From a virus, in the IMG/VR virus record IMGVR_UViG_3300012205_000179, positions 1 to 35,491 of that record: DNA of 35,491 nucleotides, one strand, 5' to 3'. Below are positions 4,162 to 35,491 of this stretch, piece after piece. Within the stretch, counting starts at the first letter, position 1. Each line of letters opens with the position of its first letter. The position numbers were made by a program, and so were the translations under genes. Below the pieces are notes generated by a model that saw only the letters and a list, made by a program, of their open reading frames with translations, was not told where the DNA came from and ran no database searches.

Positions 4162-5514
4162 ATGGCACTCATATTACAGGATTCACTCGGCGGACTGTGG
4201 AGCGTCACGATCGATGACAATGGCGGACTAGGGACTACTTCCGTGCTCTCCGGTTTGCCGAGCGCGCCGGTTCTGAATGATGCCGGCGGATCCACATCTT
4301 GGATTGTAGGCGTCACTTCCACAGGGCAACTGAAGACAACGACAACAACTTTCATTCCTGGAAATCCTACCTTCATTACCCTGACCAGTCCATCGGCGAC
4401 CTGGAAAGTAGGAGTAACGGTCGACGGCTTATTTACGACAAACCAGCAAGTCGTGACCGTCTCCGTGCTTGGAAGCGGCAAGGTCACTGCCGTCAATCCG
4501 ATCAGTTCATTTACCATTCCTGTTCGCACCGTATTCACGTTGACTTGGACATTGACGGATGCGGCGGGAATCCCCATCAACAATGCCACTGTAACAGCTA
4601 CGCTTTTTGCCGGGCGATCCGCCACCAATCCCTTGGGCACGCCCGGTACGCCGGTCTCTCCGATCAATGGATTGACGCTCGGTTATGTCGCTGGTTCGGC
4701 GGGACAATATTCAGCGGTCATTCCAGGCGAGATCAATCCGCCGCTGAATGGAACCGGTTATACGCTGGTTGTCGATGCCACCGTTGCCGGAACGCAGATT
4801 TATCACACCGAACAGCCGGCCACGGTGGAGACGGCCGGGTCTTTGCTCGACCTCACGACCGTCGACCAGGTCAAGAGCTGGATTCCCGGTCTTGCGGCCG
4901 CCGGCAGCGCCGATGATGCCATCATCCAGGCCTGCATCACCGCCTGGGGATTTGAATTCTTGAATCGTACCGGGCTCGGCAATCAGAATGGAGACTTGCT
5001 GCAATCTCCGTTCTGTGGCGTGTGCAATTTCAGCGAAACCTACGACGGCACGGGAACCTACCGGCTTTTTGTCCGCAACCGGCCGGTCAAAAACGTCTCG
5101 GCATTGATCATCAACGGAATCCAGGTCGCGCAATCTTCGGGCTTTTCCGTTCAAGGCTGGGTGATCGACGGAACCGGGAAAAGCATTTCTTTGCGCCCAG
5201 GCCTTCTTGGGTGGGGTGGAAGCTTTCCGCAAACGGCGTGGCAGTCCGGAGCCTATCGCGCGTTTGGCGGTGGCATGCGTTTCTTTGAAGGGATCCAGAA
5301 CATCTACTTGCAGTATTCGGCCGGTTACAACAACACGCCGGCGGATGTCGTGCAGTGCGCAAATAAAGTTGTTGCGCAAAATTATCGTCGTCGAAGCTGG
5401 GTGGACGAAGCTTCGCGCGCGATGAGTGGTGGCGCCGGCACCATCAGATATCGCGATTGGGATCTGCCAAGTGAGTGTCAGTATGTGGTTGACCGATATA
5501 CAAGGACATTGTGA
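4162..5514 (+). CDS. Head-tail connector (HK97 gp6-like) with N-terminal beta-domain extension
   Basis: The C-terminal ~220 residues, from LTTVDQVKSWI onward, look like the gp6/adaptor family that forms the ring under the portal: a helical start with a DDAIIQACITAWGFEFLNRTG-type segment, a central strand region (YRLFVRNRPVKNVSALIING), and a final helix (VVQCANKVVAQNYRRRSWVDE). Usual family members are 90-200 residues; here ~230 N-terminal residues are added, made of beta-repeats and an Ig-like segment (FTLTWTLTDAAGIPINNATVTATL). The position before a gp10-like and a terminator-like gene supports the call. The stop codon is shared with the GTG of the endonuclease remnant. Confidence 0.7.
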   Translation: MALILQDSLGGLWSVTIDDNGGLGTTSVLSGLPSAPVLNDAGGSTSWIVGVTSTGQLKTTTTTFIPGNPTFITLTSPSATWKVGVTVDGLFTTNQQVVTVSVLGSGKVTAVNPISSFTIPVRTVFTLTWTLTDAAGIPINNATVTATLFAGRSATNPLGTPGTPVSPINGLTLGYVAGSAGQYSAVIPGEINPPLNGTGYTLVVDATVAGTQIYHTEQPATVETAGSLLDLTTVDQVKSWIPGLAAAGSADDAIIQACITAWGFEFLNRTGLGNQNGDLLQSPFCGVCNFSETYDGTGTYRLFVRNRPVKNVSALIINGIQVAQSSGFSVQGWVIDGTGKSISLRPGLLGWGGSFPQTAWQSGAYRAFGGGMRFFEGIQNIYLQYSAGYNNTPADVVQCANKVVAQNYRRRSWVDEASRAMSGGAGTIRYRDWDLPSECQYVVDRYTRTL

Positions 5515-17838: not shown

Positions 17839-20800
17839 TGGGGCTTCTCGGCGGTGGAAGCGGGAACCGTACGCAAAAGTACAACGCGGTACGGACCAAC
17901 AATTCGATCCTTGGCATCACCGTCCCTCTTCTTTTCGGCCAGAACCGCCTTGCCGCGCGCTTGATCGATTACAACGATTTCACGGCCACGAAAGCGAAGC
18001 AACAGGGCGGCAAAGGGCTTGGCAAGGGTGGCACGCAGTATGTCTACACCGCTTCGATTATCGCTCTTCTAGCTCAAGGCCCTATCAACGCCCTTCTAAA
18101 TCTTTGGGATTCTACCGGGCGTTTCGTGCTTCTCAGCTCTTCTGAGACCCATACGATCGCTGGTGGTGGCGGCACATACACGCCGACAAATGCGGCTATT
18201 TTTGGAAACGACCAGGGCGTCTACGTCGCGACAAGTTATTCCGTCGGTCCTTTTACGGATTACGGATCTCCCGGGCCCGTAACGCTCACCGGAACGCAGA
18301 ATATCCCCATGGTGCAAGTCCCATCGTCGCCCGGCGCCGGCCAGTACAGCGTGAATCCAACAACTGGCGTATACAGTTTTGCAGCAGCCGATGCCGGAAA
18401 AGTTGCCACCATAAATTATTCCTACTATCGCTACCAGATCATCACGCAGGAAATCACGGTCGTGCCATTCTCGGGTCCTTTTACGGTTACGGTGGACAAT
18501 TCCACGAATTTCGTTGCCGACCGCGGCGTGAGCTTCTATCCGAGCGGCACAGCCCTGATCAAAGTCGGCGGCTCGCCGGCTGCAGGACATTATTCACAGT
18601 CCGGAGCGACTTACACTTTCAATTCCGCGGACACCGGGTTAGGCATCGTCATCAACTATCAATACAAGGATCCCAATACAAACACGAATGCTCCAACGAC
18701 ATTGAACCTCACGCTTGTCAGCGGCCTCCTCGGCCAGGCTCCGCTTTCCTATATGACCGGGAAGCATCCATCGAAGGCGCTCGGTTATTCACAACTGGCC
18801 TATATTTTCTCTTCCGCTTTGTATCTGGGATTCACTCCGGAACTGCCGAATTATTCTTACGAGGTTGCCGGCAATTTCCAGTTTGGCGGCGGCGTCGTCG
18901 ATGCGAATCCCGCCGACTGCATCACTGCTTTGCTGACCGATCCTGCATTCAGTATCGGTTTCCCGCTCAACGGCATAAGCGGTCTTGATAGCGCATCCCT
19001 GGCGCGGAAGTGCTGGACGGCGAATTCTTTGTTCATTTCGCCGATCATCGAGAATCAAACGCCTTGCGCCCACATCATTGCTCCATGGCTCGAGGCCGGC
19101 ATGTGTGCTGCATTTTGGAGCGAAGGACTGCTCAAATTCGTTCCTTACAGCGACACGACCGCGGTCGGCAACGGCGTCACCTATTCGCCATCGACAACTC
19201 CGATCGTGAACATCACCGACGACAATTACATTCTTCCGAAAGACAAGGCCGAAGATCCCATAAAAATCACCAGGTCCGCCTGGCAGGATGCTTTCAACCG
19301 CGCGCAGGTCACGTATCAGGCCCGCGTGAACGATTACAATCCCGAGGTTGTCTACGAACAGGACGAAGCATCGATCGGCCGGTACGGCTTGCGCATCGAG
19401 GACCCCCAGCAATATGATTTCATCACTACGCTCGTGGCCGCTCAATATGCCGCTTCGATGCGCGTGCAGCGCAAATCCTATATTCGCAACGAATACACGT
19501 TTAAGCTTCCTGATACATTCTCTTATCTGGAGCCAATGGATGTCGTCACGATCAACGATCTGATCCTGGGGCTATCAGGGACTCCTGTTCGCATCACAAA
19601 AATCGAAGACGATCCGCAAGAAGGCTTGAGCATTACTGCGGAAGATTTCATCTGGGGCACGGCGCAGCCTGCTTACAATCCGAAAGATGTCAATGCGCCC
19701 TACGTTCTGGAACTTGGCCAGCAAGACCCGGGGAATACGAATGCACTTGTCCTTGAAGCTCCTAACCGTCTTGGATTGCAGCAAGGAAACATTCTCTACG
19801 GGTTTGTGAATGGTTCCAATCCGAATTGGGGCGGCTGCCATGTCTGGGTGAGCACCGATGGCGGAACAAATTACGCTTTATTGACAACCATCAGTTCGCC
19901 CAGCAGGCTCGGTACGCTAACACAATCGCTGGCAGCTTTCAGCTCGGCGAATCCGGATAATACCAATACGCTTCAGGTAAAACTCAATGTTGCCGGGGCC
20001 ACTCTCGCCACAGTTGCTTCATCCGACGCCTCGAACCTTGTGAGCCTCTGTGCAATCGTCAATGCATCGAATGCCCTCGAACTGTTGAGTTATCAAACGG
20101 CAAGTCTTGTCGGCGGGGAACTCTACAATTTGACGACACTCTATCGTGGGGTATACGGAACTCCCGGGTCTTCGCACCTTGCTGGTGAGATATTTGCCCG
20201 GTTGGACCAGGCCAGTTTCATCCAGCAATACGATCCGACATTCTACGGCAAAACGCTCAATTTCAAATTCACCTCGTTCAATCTCCTTGGCAATCAGGAA
20301 CAATCGCTTTCTGCCGTGACTGCTTATCCCTTGACGATTGCCGGCACCGGGAAAGGTGCTGTAGGTCTCGATACAGGCTATCTGCTCATAGGAGCACCAG
20401 GGTATACGGCGTATCGGCCACTTTCGAATCCATTGACCGCCCATGATGCCGGATCCAATGCTACCGTGAATATCGCGTCGTTCACGATGCAGCTCGCCGG
20501 ACTGACGAACATTGCCTATAACTCCGGCTCGATCACCGGGCTTTCCTACAACACGCTCTACTACATTTATTTCGACGATATCGCCGAAGTCGGCGGGACG
20601 GTCACCTATAATGCGACGACAACGAAAGAAACGGCCTTCGCCGGGACTAATCGATTTTTTGTTGGCTCGATTTTCACGCCGCGCGCCGGTGCGGTCGATA
20701 CGATTGGAAATCTCGATGGCGGCAATGGAGCCCAAGGTGGTCGTCTGAATGTATTAGGCATGTCATTTGCACAAAACGGCGCACGAATCAGCGGCAATGG

Positions 20801-34615: not shown

Positions 34616-34644
34616 TTGACAATCTATTTGCTAAACGTTTACGC
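34616..34644 (+). promoter_or_regulatory. Promoter candidate TTGACA-N17-TTACGC for the RNA array
   Basis: Perfect -35 (34616-34621), 17-base spacer, weak -10 TTACGC (34639-34644). Predicted start ~34651, just ahead of the first hairpin of the structured RNA. TTGAC here could also be the flank of an IS200/IS605-type element. Confidence 0.4.
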
Positions 34645-34660: not shown

Positions 34661-34806
34661 ACCTAGGGCTGGATAAGCCCAAAGTAAAGCCTCTTCGTAG
34701 TCCTCCGCTGAAGTAAGGCGGTTGTGGGAGGAACCCACCGAAGAGACCGGACTAACACATCCGGCTCCGTAGGAATCCTCTCCATTTATGGAGAGGAGGA
34801 TGTCAA
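34661..34806 (+). ncRNA. Highly structured RNA, HEARO/omega-RNA-like
   Basis: Helices by position: GGGCT/AGCCC (34666-34670 with 34676-34680); CTCTTCG/CGAAGAG (34691-34697 with 34739-34745) enclosing CCGC/GCGG (34705-34708 with 34718-34721) and GTGGG/CCCAC (34724-34728 with 34734-34738); CCGGA/TCCGG (34747-34751 with 34760-34764); and an 8-bp TCCTCTCC/GGAGAGGA (34776-34783 with 34790-34797) followed by GGATGTCAA. The GGAATCC-hairpin-GGATGTCAA end and AGGAACCC core are, from memory, like the right ends of IscB/TnpB-type elements and their guide RNAs, but no nuclease gene is present in the window. A second copy starts at 35419. Confidence 0.5.
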
Positions 34807-34874
34807 GCTCGGAATCGCTCCTGGCACTGTTCAGGCACTGTTCAGACGTACACAAGATCCGGTTTTGATGAGTT

Positions 34875-34994
34875 CGACGCACACTGCACGCGGATACATG
34901 AACGGGACCTAAACCGTCTCGGCTCGGCTGATAACCGGGGCCCCCGCCAAAACTGAGGGGGGCTCTTTATTGTCCCGCACGCGACATTGCGTCG
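34875..34994 (+). ncRNA. Permuted tRNA-like unit P0
   Basis: Outer helix CGACGCA (34875-34881) pairs with TGCGTCG (34988-34994); conserved loop strands CACTG (34882-34886) and CGACAT (34982-34987); inner GCGG (34890-34893) with CCGC (34975-34978), then ATACATG. The 3' half comes first: T-arm-like CTCGG-CTGATAA-CCGGG (34923-34939), acceptor strand GCCCCC (34940-34945), G, CCA (34947-34949). Then 7 bases, then the 5' acceptor strand GGGGGC (34958-34963), 6 bp. The T-loop is not canonical and no anticodon arm is seen, so this is tRNA-like, closer to a tmRNA-type tRNA domain. Confidence 0.55.
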
Positions 34995-35003
34995 TTTTGA
35001 TTT

Positions 35004-35140
35004 GGGGCACACTGGAATGTGGATACATGCGAGCGAAAGCTCACTCTAGGTTCGAATCCTAGGTCCGTCTCCATCTATGACGGACTTAGCCCGACTGGTA
35101 AGGGCACATGATCTGTAAACTCCACCGCCGACATTGCCCC
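35004..35140 (+). tRNA. Circularly permuted class II tRNA, Tyr(GUA)-like (unit P1)
   Basis: Outer helix GGGGCA (35004-35009) with TGCCCC (35135-35140), loops CACTG (35010-35014) and CGACAT (35129-35134), inner GTGGA/TCCAC (35019-35023 with 35121-35125). The 3' half comes first: CATG, variable arm GAGC-GAAA-GCTC (35031-35042), T-arm CTAGG-TTCGAAT-CCTAG (35046-35062), acceptor GTCCGTC (35063-35069), T, CCA (35071-35073). After TCTAT the 5' half follows: acceptor GACGGAC (35079-35085, perfect 7 bp), D-arm GCCC/GGGC, and CTGTAAA (35113-35119) with anticodon GTA. A long variable arm and CUGUAAA loop both fit tRNA-Tyr. The anticodon stem is imperfect. Confidence 0.65.
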
Positions 35141-35148
35141 ATCGATTT

Positions 35149-35260
35149 TGGCGACACTGAATAAGGCTCCATGACTGTCGGCGAATAGCCGACCCCCCTC
35201 CACCAATCGATGGGGGGGCCGCGCAAGCGGGACTATTGAAACCTTGTTCGACATTCGCCA
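35149..35260 (+). ncRNA. Permuted tRNA-like unit P2
   Basis: Outer helix TGGCGA (35149-35154) with TCGCCA (35255-35260), CACTG (35155-35159) and CGACAT (35249-35254), inner AATAAGG (35160-35166) with CCTTGTT (35242-35248, 7 bp with one G-U). 3' half first: T-arm-like GTCGG-CGAATAG-CCGAC (35177-35193), acceptor CCCCTCC (35195-35201), A, CCA (35203-35205). After ATCGAT comes 5' acceptor GGGGGGG (35212-35218), 7 bp with one G-U, then hairpin CCGC-GCAA-GCGG. No anticodon arm and a non-canonical T-loop, so probably not a decoding tRNA. Confidence 0.55.
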
Positions 35261-35266
35261 GTTTTT

Positions 35267-35392
35267 TGGCGGTCACTGTTTGGCTTACATGGATAGAGCG
35301 TCTGCTCTCGGAGCAGAAGGTCGTCGGTTCAAATCCGATACCCTGTAATGGGGTTAGCTCAGTAGCAAAAACAGCCGGACGACATACCGCCA
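35267..35392 (+). tRNA. Circularly permuted tRNA split in the D-loop, Arg(UCG)-like (unit P3)
   Basis: Outer helix TGGCGGT (35267-35273) with ACCGCCA (35386-35392), CACTG (35274-35278) and CGACAT (35380-35385), inner TTTGGCT (35279-35285) with AGCCGGA (35373-35379). 3' half first: GGATA-GAGC, anticodon arm TCTGC-TCTCGGA-GCAGA (35301-35317), AGGTC, T-arm GTCGG-TTCAAAT-CCGAT (35323-35339), acceptor ACCCTGT (35340-35346), A. The 5' half follows directly: ATGGGGT (35348-35354; 7 bp with two G-U), TA, GCTC, AGT. Joining AGT and GGATA gives a normal D-loop. Position 33 is C, not U; no CCA is encoded. Confidence 0.65.
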
Positions 35393-35418
35393 TTGTTTTT
35401 GGCAGGATACTGCCAAAC

Positions 35419-35491
35419 TAGGGCTGGACGAGCCCGATGTGAAGCCTGTGGAGATGCGGCGCTGTAAGGCTGATCGATGAAGCAGGAACCC
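35419..35491 (+). ncRNA. Second copy of the structured RNA, cut by window edge
   Basis: Starts TAGGGCTGGACGAGCCC (35419-35435), like TAGGGCTGGATAAGCCC at 34664-34680, then GATGTGAAGCCTG, GTAAGGC and AGGAACCC, each aligned with the first copy. The sequence differs but the 5' hairpin is preserved by pairing. It is preceded by GGCAGGATACTG (35401-35412), like the left edge of the permuted units, so its right edge may show whether it belongs to the same array. Confidence 0.5.

Follow-up and report, generated by a model that had tools for sequence, protein, structure and literature searches.

TnpB omegaRNAs (also termed reRNAs) of the ISDra2 and IS608 type consist of a scaffold that lies over the 3′ end of tnpB and the right end of the element. 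They feature a GAAT–hairpin–TCAA right end, a guide taken from the 3′ flank, and a target motif of the TTAC type—TTAC itself in the case of IS608 (PMC8612924). Palindrome-associated transposable elements (PATEs) are TnpB-less, IS605-derived elements known from Haloquadratum (PMC3119063), and a 271-nt PATE of Halanaerobium retains the LE hairpin, the last 58 nt of tnpB, and the full RE (PMC7290912). RAGATH-18 (RF03064) serves IS607 TnpB as its guide scaffold (PMC11061315). TldR is a nuclease-dead TnpB of phages with a guide RNA (PMC13418256), and in plasmids, TnpB functions as a gene drive for IS elements (PMC11870625). No report of TnpB-less omegaRNAs in phages was found in the open literature.

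The window—the whole stretch of DNA analyzed here—is the IMG/VR record IMGVR_UViG_3300012205_000179, which is linear, comprises 35,491 bases, and is probably a fragment. It features siphovirus-type tail genes, one RecT, and one terminase-like gene. Searches with PF07282 and PF01385 find no TnpB gene in this 35-kb record, in agreement with the sequence-only reading, which had described a nuclease-free OMEGA-type guide RNA. As a probable fragment, the record leaves room for a TnpB gene in another part of the phage. The sole relative found, IMGVR_UViG_3300012208_000003 (65 kb; L001), is 77–86% identical to the window over most of the region. It likewise carries no TnpB gene in its 65-kb record and shares the array that lies between the two RNA copies of the window, but both omegaRNA copies are absent; in L001, an unrelated stretch of ∼0.6 kb separates the array from the upstream gene.

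The covariance model R1 was built from 20 TnpB-linked omegaRNAs with no window sequence included. It matches the window at exactly two places: copy 1 (34662..34806, plus strand), matched over its full length with 64.8 bits and an E-value of 7.5e-16, and copy 2 (35417..35491, plus strand), with 51.6 bits and an E-value of 2.1e-12, both E-values being rough. As R1 derives from TnpB-linked RNAs, its matches place both copies, at the level of sequence and structure, in the TnpB omegaRNA class; such a model search had been proposed beforehand. Distant blastn matches align the copy 2 core with the 3′ termini of annotated TnpB genes on plasmids of Janthinobacterium, Aeromonas, and E. coli; for copy 1, the right-end portion aligns with similar right ends, and phage matches likewise lie at the 3′ termini of such annotated genes. 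As a type, these RNAs share with the omegaRNAs of ISDra2 and IS608 the scaffold, the right end, the 3′-flank guide, and the type of target motif. Unlike in IS200/IS605 elements, no tnpB lies upstream of the phage copies, neither overlapping nor directly 5′, a position that is usual for the gene and not part of the RNA. At the gathering score of Rfam, the window yields one tRNA-like match only, and a lax threshold adds HgcC at copy 1 (25.3 bits) and RAGATH-18 at copy 2 only (27.0 bits against a gathering score of 44.9 bits). The core of copy 2 thus resembles RAGATH-18 below threshold, whereas the ends and relatives of the phage copies are of the IS200/IS605 type.

Copy 1 features a complete TnpB-type scaffold, all on the plus strand: a 5′ hairpin (34666–34680); the helix CCUCU with GGAGG (34690–34694 with 34727–34731); an inner stem (34705–34708 with 34718–34721); a middle hairpin (34747–34764); and the right-end hairpin (34777–34796). 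The latter is preceded by GAAT (34773..34776), which is invariant in the host alignment and which we take to be the IS608-type guide GR. It is followed by TCAA (34803..34806), the right-end cleavage motif (CR) according to an alignment of 32 host copies. The previously noted ending hairpin-GGATGTCAA lies exactly at 34777–34806, and the order GAAT–hairpin–TCAA (34773–34806) followed by a variable guide is that of TnpB omegaRNAs. The stable fold claimed for 34661–34806 holds as well, with −56.3 kcal/mol, a z-score of −3.28, and an equally good fold in one of 200 shuffles, and acidobacterial relatives retain its helices. The lowest-energy outer helix CTCTTCG/CGAAGAG is probably not native, the conserved pairing being CCUCU/GGAGG. 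Copy 1 is 87.7% identical over 155 nt to a TnpB-less acidobacterial copy (L143), and clear homology of its segment to the host copies begins at about 34651.

The segment 34643..34806 (plus strand) is the probable insertion—a left-truncated mini-element of the IS200/IS605 type—because its removal gives a promoter-to-array spacing like that of L001, within 2 nt (26 nt in the window versus 24 nt in L001 between TTGACA and GAATCGCTCCTGGCAC). The base preceding 34643 is the last of TTTAC (34638..34642, plus strand), the presumed target or cleavage motif (CL, TAM), and host copies begin after (C/T)TTAC; the boundary itself is presumed from the spacing in a single relative of roughly 84% identity. 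Directly after TCAA, the would-be guide GCTCGGAATCGCTCCTGGCA (34807..34826, plus strand) is made up of the first bases of the array leader. The leader of L001 matches it at 17 of 20 positions and would be a poor target for copy 1, since its first bases differ and TTTAC is absent. The flank had been suggested as a source of guide-like matches; the check gave no TAM-flanked match to the guide among the loci examined. An 18-nt match to L001 in the host locus L158 looks guide-like but falls within a coding gene and is attributed to chance. Upstream of the segment, a perfect −35 hexamer, TTGACA (34616..34621, plus strand), is accompanied by a weak −10, and the consensus scan calls no promoter there; L001 features TTGACA-N16-TATTCT at the same place. 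Possibly, the TTGACA of the window belongs to the array promoter of the phage itself; L001 has it as well.

Copy 2 belongs to a second family of TnpB-type omegaRNAs, with a CCUGU...GCAGG helix, and is represented by its first half. As the sequence-only reading had it, this copy has the same orientation as copy 1; it starts at ∼35417 and runs off the end of the record, with its 3′ half, right end, and guide beyond position 35491. (C/T)TTAC is absent directly upstream. Copy 2 is 93.2% identical over 74 nt to an acidobacterial copy (L225), and its closest relatives form the type-B family, which is TnpB-less and occurs in the same acidobacterial genomes. The locus does contain two omegaRNAs, but they are not duplicates of each other: the separate closest host family of each rules out a recent duplication of one copy into two.

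The copy-1-specific pattern was found at 35 loci, all in six acidobacterial MAGs and in no other taxon among the 84,980 species genomes scanned; the exact 5′-end pattern and the type A and type B core patterns hit no other virus among viral contigs. At 34 of the 35 loci, no TnpB lies within up to 8 kb, and the remaining one (L167) has a single weak TnpB match. The helix CCUCU/GGAGG of the copy-1 type is swapped compared with CCUGU/GCAGG of the TnpB-linked relatives. Complete host copies follow (C/T)TTAC and consist of GGGCCGTAAAGCCTCGGCG...GGCCGAGG (AAAG plus a hairpin), the omegaRNA, and GAAT–hairpin–TCAA; the flanks outside these ends, including the one after TCAA, are unique to each of the 32 aligned copies. 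The left-end motif was recognized in 35 of 50 host elements (15 are without it), and in 25 of these 35, (C/T)TTAC lies no more than 14 nt before the motif, compared with 1% by chance. The host relatives thus have both palindromic ends, no transposase, dispersed copies, and clean flanks, as PATEs do. Both phage copies lack the left-end hairpin; hence, they are remnants rather than complete PATE-like members and are probably immobile. Among the three options offered by the sequence-only reading, a miniature element is the best, and a new RNA class is contradicted by the tens of copies of the same RNAs in Acidobacteria. So far, PATEs have been viewed purely as DNA passengers that depend on a foreign transposase for their movement. 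The present elements resemble them in being transposase-free, in their IS605 ends, and in the deletion of the tnpB core with retention of the omegaRNA-bearing right end. They differ in that compensatory changes maintain the omegaRNA fold throughout an amplified family and in that two left-truncated copies reside in a phage.

Covariation was assessed for copy 1 of the window together with 20 TnpB-less host copies, using 25 stated pairs in four stem-loops. Pairing is kept in 96.2% of the cells, and changes on both sides occur at 11 of the 25 pairs. The covariation score amounts to 0.380 compared with 0.144 ± 0.014 for shuffled sets (0/500) and with 0.02–0.08 (maximum 0.079) for slid partners; structural conservation in relatives is thus found alongside the model match. 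Upon addition of three TnpB-linked RNAs, the helix CCUCU/GGAGG also shows a double change from C-G to G-C. The fold of the TnpB-less copies is, hence, kept by compensatory changes. This supports, without proving, selection on the RNA after loss of TnpB, as cells count sequences and not events and the two main versions of the middle hairpin could stem from two parents. The right-end hairpin could be kept by TnpA at the DNA level; to our knowledge, no TnpA site is known in the middle or inner helices.

TnpB is present in all six acidobacterial genomes, with PF07282 matches numbering 6 in G002, 2 in G003, 15 in G004, 1 in G005, 10 in G006, and 21 in G007, and a TnpA-like Y1 protein is found in five of the six. 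The omegaRNA matches per genome—lower bounds, with 150 candidates scored in each—number at least 28, 19, 59, 18, and 22 in G002 to G006, respectively, and exceed the TnpB matches in each of these five; G007 is the exception, with at least 11 omegaRNAs for its 21 TnpB matches. In G002, G003, and G006, there are omegaRNAs with a copy-1-type core but with CCUGU/GCAGG; they are TnpB-linked where checked, and their TnpBs are, from sequence, the best candidates for the cognate nucleases. As the fold is kept and omegaRNA matches mostly far outnumber TnpB, the use of TnpB in trans as well as of TnpA is directly testable. The acidobacterial genomes with the same elements are most likely the hosts of the phage, the phage copies pointing to Acidobacteria of subdivisions 1/2; a search by terminase for akin prophages in acidobacterial genomes gave distant matches only (≤34% identity).

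We read both features, with a probability of about 0.8, as omegaRNAs of TnpB-less, PATE-like IS200/IS605 mini-elements that came from acidobacterial hosts and inserted in the phage. Two mini-elements of different families would have inserted beside and within the Y-RNA-like array of the phage, and both would then have lost their left ends. In the host, complete copies are most likely moved by TnpA in trans. Judging from TnpB biology, a host omegaRNA with its flank as guide most likely loads onto TnpB supplied in trans; the loaded TnpB would cut the uninserted allele, and repair would copy the element back. Copy 1, if transcribed with the array, would direct host TnpB to insertion-free leaders next to TTTAC. 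That the phage copies use host TnpB in trans is a tentative proposal, held at a little short of even odds. The wider proposal is improbable as a whole: that nuclease-free phage omegaRNAs and host TnpB in trans make up a guide-only weapon or homing device and that the acidobacterial families are guide RNA parasites that act in trans and exploit a few TnpB genes. If true, coinfecting phages with an insertion-free array leader would be cut, and the insertion would spread. Two points are new: the amplified acidobacterial families, whose guide RNA fold is maintained by compensatory changes, and the two left-truncated phage copies. As these copies demonstrate, elements that bring only a guide RNA are able to get into the genomes of viruses; there, they could play a part in competition between phages.

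The strongest alternative on function is that the copies are inert relics: right ends of decayed IS200/IS605 elements passing through, with no function now. The missing left ends of both copies, the relative L001 without either copy, and the commonness of decayed TnpB-less ends, as in the PATEs of Haloquadratum (PMC3119063), speak for it. However, all scaffold helices and the RE hairpin of copy 1 are formed and TCAA is intact, so that any decay is recent or limited, and the relic explanation is plausible while remaining a minority view. A domesticated phage guide RNA that turns host TnpB on rival phages or on the host itself—for exclusion, homing-like spread of the phage's array, or regulation—would fit the intact scaffolds that have lost the left end for transposition, the strong −35 just upstream of copy 1, and the cognate-type TnpB omegaRNAs in acidobacterial genomes. 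It would also fit the gene drive shown for TnpB against IS-free plasmids (PMC11870625) and the use by phages of TnpB-derived TldR with guides (PMC13418256). The TldR system is alike in that phages employ a guide RNA of the TnpB class, but the window carries neither a TldR gene nor an adjacent TnpB-like gene, and there is no known target. Domestication is unlikely, as carriage is not conserved in the sole relative, the guide of copy 1 has no TAM-flanked match among the loci examined, and a good −10 is missing; the left-end loss in two of two phage copies is weak evidence because 15 of 50 host copies also lack the motif. An RNA decoy that, like RNA anti-CRISPRs, saturates its target, here host TnpB, would suit an intact scaffold without a nuclease in two copies of two types, but it is very improbable given that nothing indicates harm to the phage by host TnpB, that the guide is still attached, and that many such RNAs already exist in host genomes. 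A HEARO or IscB-type guide RNA, the other half of the original "HEARO/omega-like" label and based on general resemblance only, can practically be dismissed, since RF02033 has no match in the window at the gathering score or at E ≤ 10, while TnpB RNAs match strongly and the guide is on the 3′ side.

The array (34807..35404, plus strand) is context rather than part of the element and is common to L001. Its units (34807–35404 in the window; 18590–19520 in L001) feature stems such as GGCGGT/ACCGCC with the bulges CACTG and GACAT around permuted tRNA-like modules. One L001 unit reaches 36.7 bits with the Rfam model YrlA (RF02553), which is below threshold; no TROVE/Ro60 protein (PF05731) was found in the L001 record. 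The permuted tRNA-like modules seen by the sequence-only reading are thus present, but the array more likely consists of tandem Y-RNA-like (YrlA) units than of permuted tRNAs. The functional link to the array that it had considered finds no evidence, the leader being simply the insertion site. The first array unit of L001 (18628–18699) holds an unpermuted tRNA-Lys (CTT)-like module according to ARAGORN and Rfam, and its equivalent appears deleted in the window. Just past the array of L001, a frame at ∼19870–20187 shows, by eye, an HNH-like motif (CYYCG...DHFEPL...RRCN).

A scan of viral contigs with the core pattern gave at least 120 loci, which were searched with a TnpB HMM from six proteins. 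Among the matches listed (125 places), a TnpB-like frame is rightly placed at 76, 15 are too near an edge, and 34 have at least 1.4 kb upstream and no TnpB-like frame. The idea that solo omegaRNAs of phages generally have a promoter of their own was considered and rejected: TATAAT-like sites upstream of 32 solo copies are not enriched (14 versus 15.4 in shuffled sequences), so no general claim is made. The 119-kb record IMGVR_UViG_3300044940_000489 (L020, L030, L058) carries at least five TnpB-less omegaRNAs in both orientations with differing 3′ sequences. Thermus phage TMA features a solo omegaRNA (L011, 2000–2131) with TATAAT just upstream, homologous to the RNA after TnpA–TnpB in phage YS40_Isch (L012). 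It resembles the copies described here in being phage-borne with no TnpB beside it and differs in its scaffold, in its right end TTCAC, and in not being acidobacterial. At L095 (∼4458–5505), one TnpB gene is followed by two omegaRNAs ∼0.9 kb apart with different 3′ flanks, and on a Janthinobacterium plasmid (L005, 2440–2763), two omegaRNA right ends, arranged as a tandem direct repeat, come after TnpB.
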